Below are positions 30,741 to 34,512 of a stretch of 64,000 bases of DNA, piece after piece; the first letter of the stretch is position 1, and every line of letters starts with the position of its first letter. Where the stretch lies: assembly GCF_003730135.1 (NCBI RefSeq), contig NZ_RJVO01000001.1, positions 644,001 to 708,000 on the forward strand. Reading direction: 5' to 3'. The notes below the pieces were generated by a model. It was not told the origin of the DNA. It made no database searches and saw only the letters and a program-made list of their open reading frames with translations. This DNA is from Stagnimonas aquatica. Its GTDB lineage: Bacteria > Pseudomonadota > Gammaproteobacteria > Nevskiales > Nevskiaceae. The position numbers and the translations under genes are program-made.

Positions 30741-30746
30741 TATAAT
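30741..30746 (+). promoter_or_regulatory. Consensus -10 box of argH
   Basis: TATAAT matches the sigma-70 -10 consensus exactly and lies 49 nt upstream of the argH ATG. No good -35 was found at 17 nt spacing. Confidence 0.5.
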
Positions 30747-30795
30747 GCCGCGCCCGCCGCCACTGCGGCGCCCACCGAACGCCGTAGCCGACCCC

Positions 30796-32208
<1,413 letters not shown>

Positions 32209-32210
32209 CA

Positions 32211-32581
32211 GTGGACACGCTGTCTTCAGGCGAGCGCTGCCGCCGCATGGGGATGGTCAGAGGGCGGGACACCAAGCCGGAGCCCTTCGTCCGTGGATAC
32301 GCTCACAGGCTTGGTTACCGCTACCGTCTCGCTGTCGCCGATCTGCCGGGACCAGCGGATTTGGTTTTTCCGCGTTATCGCAAGGTGATTTTCGTGCACG
32401 GCTGTTTCTGGCACCGGCACGCAGCCCAAACCTGCGCATTGAGCAGGTCGCCAAAATCACCCGTGACCGTCGTAACATCTCCGCACTACGGCGACAGCAC
32501 TGGGGCGCGTTGGTGATTTGGGAGTGTCAGTTGCGGAACCCTAATCGCATTGAAAGCCGTATCGGGAGATTCCTGGGATGA
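32211..32581 (+). pseudogene. Vsr-type mismatch endonuclease, frameshifted with internal deletion
   Basis: A GTG start at 32211 opens a frame matching the Vsr N-terminal half: RGRDTKPE, GYRYRLAVADLPGPADLVF and VIFVHGCFWHRH. That frame ends at TGA 32514-32516 with unrelated residues. The C-terminal half continues in another frame (TRDRRNISALRRQHW, LVIWECQLRN, IESRIGRFLG) and ends at 32579-32581, where its stop overlaps the methyltransferase ATG. The central FWxxK-type segment is missing, so a short deletion near 32450-32465 probably removed about 10-15 codons and shifted the frame. Vsr nicks T:G mismatches arising from 5-methylcytosine. This copy should be dead unless the break is a sequencing error. 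Confidence 0.8.
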
Positions 32582-33780
32582 GCATCCGAGCACTTGAACT
32601 ATTCGCTGGCGCGGGCGGATTGGGCATGGGGATGAGCCTATCCGGCGTTAGTCCGGTCGCGGTGGTCGAATGGGATTCCTGGGCATGCGACACCATCCGA
32701 GAGAACCAGCGCCGGGGGCATCCCGTTGTTGGCGACTGGCCGGTCGTTGAAGGCGATGTTCGCGATATCGACCTTTCGTCGCTACCAGCCGACTTGGACT
32801 TGGTTACCGGTGGCCCACCTTGCCAACCATTCTCCATGGGCGGCAAGCACCTAGCCCATGACGACAGCCGCGACATGTTCCCGGCGGCGATCAACATCAT
32901 CGCCAGGCTTAGACCTCGTGCATTCCTCATCGAGAACGTGAAGGGACTGACCCGGTCTAGCTTCGCCAATTACTACCAGTACATCCTGTTGCGGCTGGAA
33001 TATCCGGAAGCCACGCCACGCCCCGGAGAGGACTGGATGGAGCATTTGCGCCGCCTGCAACAGGCACGCAGCAGCGGTGGCTTGCGTCAGTCCTTGGCCT
33101 ACAACGTGACTCCGACGCTGGTGAACGCCGCCGATTACGGTGTGCCGCAGCGACGCGAGCGAGTATTCATCGTCGGGTTCCGGCGCGACCTCGGAGTCGA
33201 GTGGCACTTCCCGCGTGAAACACATTCCCTCGACGCGCTGCTGCACTCTCAGTGGGTTACCGGAGACTACTGGCGTCGCCACGGCATGGAAGCTCCAGCA
33301 ATGCCTGTCGGGCTGGCGGCCCGAGTGCGCCGCTTGCGCGAGAGTCTTCTTCCTCCAGAGCACCAACCCTGGCTGACCACGCGCGACGCATTAGTGGGAC
33401 TACCCGAGCCAGGGACGAGCGACCTCTTTCCGAATCATCGTCAGCAGCCAGGTGCGCGGGCTTATCCAGGCCATACCGGCTCCCCCCTGGACCTGCCAGC
33501 GAAGACGCTCAAGGCGGGCGACCATGGTGTACCAGGCGGAGAAAACATGCTGGCCTATCCCGATGGCCGGGTGCGCTACTTCAGCCTGCGCGAAGCAGCC
33601 CGCATTCAGACCTTCCCGGATGGCTACGTCCTCCATGGCTCTTGGAGCGAGGCGATGCGGCAGTTAGGCAACGCGGTGCCAGTGCGACTCGCTCAGGTCG
33701 TCGCTTCCAGCCTGGTGGAGAAGCTCGCGCTATCGCGAATGGCGGAGGCCAAGTCTCGGGCCGGACGGCGGGCAGCATGA
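32578..33780 (+). CDS. DNA (cytosine-5) methyltransferase of the restriction-modification cassette
   Basis: 400 residues. Motif I is LFAGAGGLGMGM, motif IV is GGPPCQPFS with catalytic Cys82, motif VI is ENVKG (Glu119), and motif VIII is QRRERVF. Motifs IX-X lie near the C-terminus (SLREAARIQTFPDGY, QLGNAVPVRLA). The target-recognition region lies between about 215 and 320. Its ATG overlaps the vsr remnant stop, and its TGA overlaps the endonuclease ATG (both ATGA). By its partner it should protect CCGCGG, the site known for Eco29kI. Base composition is lower in GC than neighbouring genes, a sign of transfer. Confidence 0.93.
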   Translation: MSIRALELFAGAGGLGMGMSLSGVSPVAVVEWDSWACDTIRENQRRGHPVVGDWPVVEGDVRDIDLSSLPADLDLVTGGPPCQPFSMGGKHLAHDDSRDMFPAAINIIARLRPRAFLIENVKGLTRSSFANYYQYILLRLEYPEATPRPGEDWMEHLRRLQQARSSGGLRQSLAYNVTPTLVNAADYGVPQRRERVFIVGFRRDLGVEWHFPRETHSLDALLHSQWVTGDYWRRHGMEAPAMPVGLAARVRRLRESLLPPEHQPWLTTRDALVGLPEPGTSDLFPNHRQQPGARAYPGHTGSPLDLPAKTLKAGDHGVPGGENMLAYPDGRVRYFSLREAARIQTFPDGYVLHGSWSEAMRQLGNAVPVRLAQVVASSLVEKLALSRMAEAKSRAGRRAA

Positions 33781-34382
33781 GCAACGGGAAAGTCGTCACG
33801 TTCAATCCACTGGACCGACTGAACCTCGGGGCAAGCGTCACCAGCGCGCTACTCCAGTCGGAGGCGGTTCCGTTAGCGGGCCTTCCTCGTTTTGTCGGCG
33901 CTGGAATCTACGCCCTCTACTACCGCGGCTCATTCGACGCCTACCGATCCCTCGCCTCCCAGAACCGAGAAGCTTGGAGTCAGCCAATCTACGTCGGCAA
34001 GGCCGTTCCGGCGGGTGCGCGCCAAGGTGGCATGGGGCTAGGAGACAATCCCGGCGTGGTCCTGCATACGCGACTGCGCGAACATGCTGAAAGCATTCGG
34101 CAAGCCGAAAACCTATCGGAGGCCGACTTCGCATGCCGCTACCTGGTCGTGGAAGACATCTGGATTCCGCTCGCCGAGTCCCTGCTGATCGCTCGCTTCG
34201 CTCCCCTCTGGAACAAGGTCTTGGATGGCTTCGGCAATCACGACCCGGGCAAGGGCCGGCACCAAGGCCTACGTCCTCGCTGGGACTGCTTGCATCCGGG
34301 ACGGCCATGGGCCGCTCGACTGCGAGAGCGCCCGGAGCCGGCCTCTCTCATTGAGTCCGAAGTTCGCCAGTACTTGGGTTAA
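33777..34382 (+). CDS. Eco29kI-family GIY-YIG type II restriction endonuclease
   Basis: 201 residues, close to Eco29kI length. ATG 33777 overlaps the methyltransferase stop. GIYALYY (Gly43-Tyr45) and IYVGKAVPAGAR (Tyr72) form the GIY-YIG core, followed by LHTRLREHAESI (Arg99, His103), IPLAESLLI (Glu134), PLWNKVLDGFGNHDPG (Asn146) and DCLHPGRPWA. These give the Tyr, Tyr, Arg, His, Glu, Asn set expected in this family. Eco29kI cuts CCGC^GG, so the same or a related specificity is likely. All key residues are present, so the enzyme should be active. Confidence 0.9.
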   Translation: MSNGKVVTFNPLDRLNLGASVTSALLQSEAVPLAGLPRFVGAGIYALYYRGSFDAYRSLASQNREAWSQPIYVGKAVPAGARQGGMGLGDNPGVVLHTRLREHAESIRQAENLSEADFACRYLVVEDIWIPLAESLLIARFAPLWNKVLDGFGNHDPGKGRHQGLRPRWDCLHPGRPWAARLRERPEPASLIESEVRQYLG

Positions 34383-34512
34383 CTCAATCAGTTCGCGGCA
34401 CCGTCGGAATCGCCAACCCGAACCGCACCGGTTGCACCCACCCAAGCCGACACAGGTGACGGCACCGCCGCCCTTGCGCAAACTGACGGCCTTTCGCCGG
34501 CCGACCTTAGCA

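Follow-up and report, generated by a model that had tools for sequence, protein, structure and literature searches.

A horizontally acquired Eco29kI-like restriction-modification cassette with a broken vsr gene in Stagnimonas aquatica, whose genome is strongly depleted in CCGCGG

Directly behind argH, the Stagnimonas aquatica chromosome carries a compact set of genes that a first-pass annotation read as an Eco29kI-like restriction-modification (R-M) cassette. The locus was analyzed in a window of 64,000 nt, which is the whole stretch of DNA examined here (G000:C1:644001-708000), from a genome of 3.8 Mb. The ORF coordinates place the cassette where it had been described, with the vsr frame opening 2 nt past the argH stop and ydfG starting 130 nt past the endonuclease (Table 1). 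An ATGA overlap had also been claimed for each junction. This holds for the methyltransferase and endonuclease genes, which are adjacent, separate and truly overlap by 4 nt, but vsr and the methyltransferase overlap in this way only when the broken vsr is read in its displaced frame. As for the claim that no integrase is near, the window has no phage-type (tyrosine) integrase, and over 50 kb separate the cassette from the nearest one of this contig. Within the window there are no tRNA genes, and no flanking direct or inverted repeats of a mobile element were found at the cassette beyond short chance matches.

Table 1. Features of the cassette and its neighbors, in window coordinates
Feature	Position	Strand	Evidence or remark
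argH	30745-32208		Neighbor 5' of the cassette
vsr pseudogene, N-terminal part, frame 1	32211-32459	+	GTG start to ...PKS; Pfam Vsr 8.6e-21, TIGR00632 4e-21; aligned with the intact Vsr proteins of phage Milagro and of a Paraburkholderia plasmid
vsr pseudogene, C-terminal part, other frame	32462-32581	+	RDRRNISALRR..WECQL..RFLG; stop overlaps methyltransferase ATG; PADLOC Vsr 9.9e-07 (displaced frame)
C5-cytosine DNA methyltransferase, 400 aa	32578-33780	+	PF00145 5.5e-58; PCQ and ENV motifs; Eco29kI-like variable block; alignment with M.Eco29kI
GIY-YIG endonuclease, Eco29kI family, 201 aa	33777-34382	+	PF09517 7.5e-67; PDB 3mx4/3nic/3mx1, E ~1e-41; alignment
ydfG-like dehydrogenase gene	from 34513		Neighbor 3' of the cassette
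Inserted DNA, approximate extent	32209-34433		Right edge known to ~50 nt; G004 homology ends at the argH end and returns at 34419-34434; direct argH-ydfG junction in G003

The endonuclease belongs to the Eco29kI family, as the annotation had proposed. Its residues 38-200 match positions 2-164 of the 164-position Pfam profile RE_Eco29kI, and the solved structures of R.Eco29kI match the protein as well. The catalytic set of R.Eco29kI is Y49, Y76, R104, H108, E142 and N154 (PMC1952068). In the alignment, these correspond to Y45, Y72, R99, H103, E134 and N146, so the full Tyr/Tyr/Arg/His/Glu/Asn set that had been noted is present. In the methyltransferase, the C5 motifs PCQ and ENV were seen, as expected of a Type IIP R-M system with an m5C enzyme, and the block GARAYPGHTGSPLDLPAKTLKAGDHGVPGGENM aligns with GARVYPGHTGSYIDLPSKTLKAGAHGVPGGENM of M.Eco29kI from plasmid pECO29. 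The two enzymes have GAR.YPGHTGS..DLP.KTLKAG.HGVPGGENM in common, located before the last catalytic motifs. Given the Pfam E-values for all three genes (Table 1), the identity of the cassette is not a matter of chance. The endonuclease reading frame is full length, and both enzyme genes look intact in sequence. The cassette holds the only Eco29kI-family gene and the only C5-methyltransferase (PF00145) gene in the assembly, which supports its assignment as the CCGCGG system. A search of the S. aquatica genome for N6_N4_Mtase (PF01555) genes gave none.

The description of the first gene as a vsr remnant was confirmed. Its open frame has 101 codons and stops at 32516, 61 nt ahead of the methyltransferase start. 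Homology continues through ...HGCFWHRHAAQTCALSRSPKS to 32459, and what follows up to the stop is junk. The rest of the gene, RDRRNISALRRQHWGALVIWECQLRNPNRIESRIGRFLG, resumes from 32462 in another frame. No complete single frame could be followed through the WEC region, as the two halves lie in different frames. Relative to intact homologues, a net ~34-40 nt is missing; this loss is not a multiple of three and thus shifts the frame. The WEC motif of E. coli Vsr has a cysteine that binds zinc, and the WEC part is absent from the open frame here. This vsr is a true pseudogene, and it is the sole Vsr match in the genome. An intact vsr would repair the T:G mismatches that arise from deamination of methylated cytosine; here the gene is dead. 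The broken gene offers a test case for the consequences of losing m5C repair.

The cassette is a horizontally acquired insertion. The empty site is provided by one congener (G003), in which argH runs straight into ydfG, its stop overlapping the ydfG start (L085). In the nearest congener (G004), with 88.8% identity over aligned DNA, the slot is occupied by an M48-peptidase/pilin-like gene on the opposite strand (L084, 1254-2489). Two other genomes, G002 and G001, have an OmpA-like pair of genes there (L086, 1301-2352, and L087, 1295-2300, respectively). Of 85 genomes that represent the order, a single one has the Eco29kI endonuclease family. The insertion suggested earlier was therefore substantiated by comparison of the interval, as was the lower GC content compared with both sides: 62-63% in the cassette versus 66-72% in seven neighboring genes. 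GC3 is 0.69-0.70 versus 0.87-0.93, and codon adaptation to the neighbors is 0.32-0.36 versus 0.60-0.76. These profiles are strongly foreign, and the relatives are without the cassette, which is the opposite of a shared gene set with native codon usage.

Across the genus, the content of the argH-ydfG interval varies and may be the R-M cassette, the M48-peptidase/pilin-like gene, the OmpA-like pair or, in one species, nothing. In a genome of another genus (G012), argH and ydfG are nearly adjacent. Homology to G004 starts again ~80-95 nt ahead of ydfG, and this stretch is absent from G003, which indicates that the opening of the slot probably dates back to the common ancestor with G004, before the two lineages split. 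When the S. aquatica genome was searched for a displaced copy of the G004 slot gene, the only matches were pilin-like paralogues that cover the C-terminal part of that gene.

The target CCGCGG had been assigned to the cassette by analogy, and the host genome backs it independently. CCGCGG was counted against the reversed control GGCGCC in 25 genomes. S. aquatica has 474 CCGCGG versus 7,940 GGCGCC, and this ratio of 0.060 is the lowest of the 25; the other 24 range from 0.178 to 0.924. A hexamer scan that was not tuned to CCGCGG set 1.04 Mb of S. aquatica against 0.89 Mb of G004 and took in every hexamer that was common enough, 1,869 in total. The most depleted hexamer was CCGCGG (134 versus 570, density ratio 0.20, z -18.5), and the second was GAGCTC (z -6.1). 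The host thus avoids CCGCGG, and the genome reveals, unprompted, the target of an uncharacterized R-M cassette, since the most depleted hexamer is the one predicted by homology. Comparing a genome with its nearest relative in this way could serve to infer the targets of other Type II systems. ATCGAT and CGATCG, like GAGCTC, are also depleted relative to G004 (z ~ -6), possibly owing to further R-M systems, present or past.

Of 112 CCGCGG sites of G004 that were compared at orthologous positions, S. aquatica keeps 10, compared with 57-66% for five control GC palindromes. In the reverse direction, 10 of 19 S. aquatica sites are present in G004, a normal level. The raw 9% of G004 sites kept overstates the loss because some sites seen only in G004 were gained there. 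Single-base changes were polarized with G003 as the outgroup, giving 11 CCGCGG losses in S. aquatica versus 1 in G004, while control words were close to 1:1. Gains numbered 6 in G004 versus 2 in S. aquatica. G003 and G004 have 11 CCGCGG sites in common; nine could be aligned in S. aquatica, and seven of these are lost. Control sites were lost at 75 of 328 (23%), in a three-way comparison that spanned 53 kb and one ancestral CCGCGG site. The polarized and common-site samples are small but agree with each other.

Site avoidance is caused by orthodox Type II systems, in which R and M are separate, rises with residence time and can outlast a lost system; it is common, not obligatory, for Type II R-M (PMC4687349). 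The strong purge, set against the genomes of the relatives, suggests that this cassette, or an earlier one like it, works. We are highly confident that the locus is a horizontally acquired Type II V-M-R cassette with a predicted CCGCGG methyltransferase, a GIY-YIG endonuclease predicted to cut CCGCGG and a dead vsr, probably read from the argH transcript. The methyltransferase would methylate a cytosine in CCGCGG, with the exact base a prediction, and the endonuclease would cut unmethylated CCGCGG on incoming DNA. A promoter search gave no match for the cassette, and its position behind argH makes transcription from argH probable.

The age of the cassette is harder to reconcile. Its foreign codon usage suggests a recent arrival, while the strong site loss suggests a long residence. 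Either selection has been strong since the arrival or an earlier CCGCGG system preceded the present cassette, and the depletion speaks for long residence or such an earlier system in the lineage, not only for a fresh arrival. The alternative that survives best is that the cassette is recent and possibly silent, with the depletion left behind by an older CCGCGG system that has since been lost. The little amelioration seen in GC3 (0.70 versus ~0.9) and codon adaptation would agree with this, and avoidance has been reported as a trace of lost systems (PMC4687349). G003, in which the Eco29kI family is absent, is moderately depleted (ratio 0.178), so avoidance does not require the S. aquatica cassette; in G003 it may stem from a CCGCGG system that was lost or is unrelated. 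However, the losses fall in the S. aquatica lineage after the split from G004, as seen in the 11:1 polarized changes and the seven of nine common sites. S. aquatica is also the only genome of the 85 with the Eco29kI family, and both of its enzyme genes still look intact. We consider this alternative, a recent cassette with an older system behind the depletion, unlikely. In our preferred reading, the S. aquatica cassette itself, rather than a predecessor, would have driven the loss of CCGCGG.

Methylated cytosines are prone to mutation, and the only Vsr match in the genome is broken, so CCGCGG could have been lost by deamination once vsr broke rather than by restriction pressure. The kinds of base change do not support deamination as the cause and make it very unlikely. 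Among 79 single changes from G004 CCGCGG sites, 40 are transversions (51%), compared with 47-64% in control words. No position of CCGCGG had a clear excess of C-to-T changes among the 79; C2>T (12) was not above C2>G (19). CTGCGG is enriched only 1.19-fold, equal to CCCCGG. Since there is no C-to-T signature and transversions are at the control level, selection against cutting fits better than deamination, and the site loss fits long selection by CCGCGG cutting. The orthologous sites were thus lost in the S. aquatica lineage by all kinds of base change, which is what separates the two causes. An orphan methylation system, in which the methyltransferase is active and the endonuclease inactive, is most improbable: vsr in the same cassette is already a pseudogene, but the endonuclease keeps its full-length frame and six catalytic residues, and avoidance typifies orthodox Type II systems, whose R and M are separate (PMC4687349).

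Restriction of CCGCGG might also bear on the decay of vsr. If most sites were purged by restriction, little methylated cytosine would be left to deaminate, and vsr would become dispensable and decay, which would give V-M-R cassettes a way to shed V. We offer this route tentatively and regard it as rather unlikely. Among 23 relatives with V-M-R on one strand, a frame check flagged two vsr genes as interrupted, one is short and begins beside a contig end, and the others are open.

Relatives of the endonuclease, with up to ~63% identity, are spread over many phyla. V-M-R on one strand was the commonest arrangement in the 68 loci examined (those 23), followed by M-R (19). Eco29kI itself (plasmid pECO29, NC_001537) has a GIY-YIG endonuclease that shares all six catalytic residues, a C5-methyltransferase with a near-identical variable-region block and the same target as predicted here, CCGCGG. 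It differs in having R followed by M, the two annotated genes, on a small mobilizable plasmid, whereas the S. aquatica cassette is V-M-R and chromosomal, and the endonucleases are ~41% identical (tblastn). Closer matches are found in Burkholderia phage Milagro (OM638609, a peduovirus) and a Paraburkholderia aromaticivorans plasmid (NZ_CP051517), whose endonucleases are 58.5-60% identical to that of S. aquatica. Both have the V-M-R genes in the same order and on the same strand, with a 4-nt M/R overlap (ATGA in Milagro). Unlike the S. aquatica cassette, both have an intact vsr and are on mobile elements, and the plasmid copy is beside a site-specific integrase. The phage and the plasmid show vehicles for such cassettes in general.

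A survey of REBASE reports 310 putative CCGCGG m5C systems, some with a Vsr-like V gene, so the V-M-R arrangement is already known (PMC10855626). The S. aquatica vsr differs from the V genes covered there in being frame-shifted, and no description of the S. aquatica locus was found in the text consulted. The survey also describes the DraI m4C R-M system of Deinococcus radiodurans, which has an Eco29kI-like GIY-YIG endonuclease that cuts CCGCGG; its methyltransferase is m4C and non-adjacent, in contrast to the C5 enzyme of S. aquatica. The cassette is an ordinary member of a known R-M type for which V genes have already been described. What is added here is evidence from the genome, independent of homology, that bears on its target and on CCGCGG restriction activity in the lineage.

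A few relatives seem to be degraded. Roseospirillum (L076, 5001-5571) has a split endonuclease match, and in Corynebacterium lowii (L081) and a Rhodospirillales MAG (L082) the endonuclease is partial and the methyltransferase matches are fragmented.
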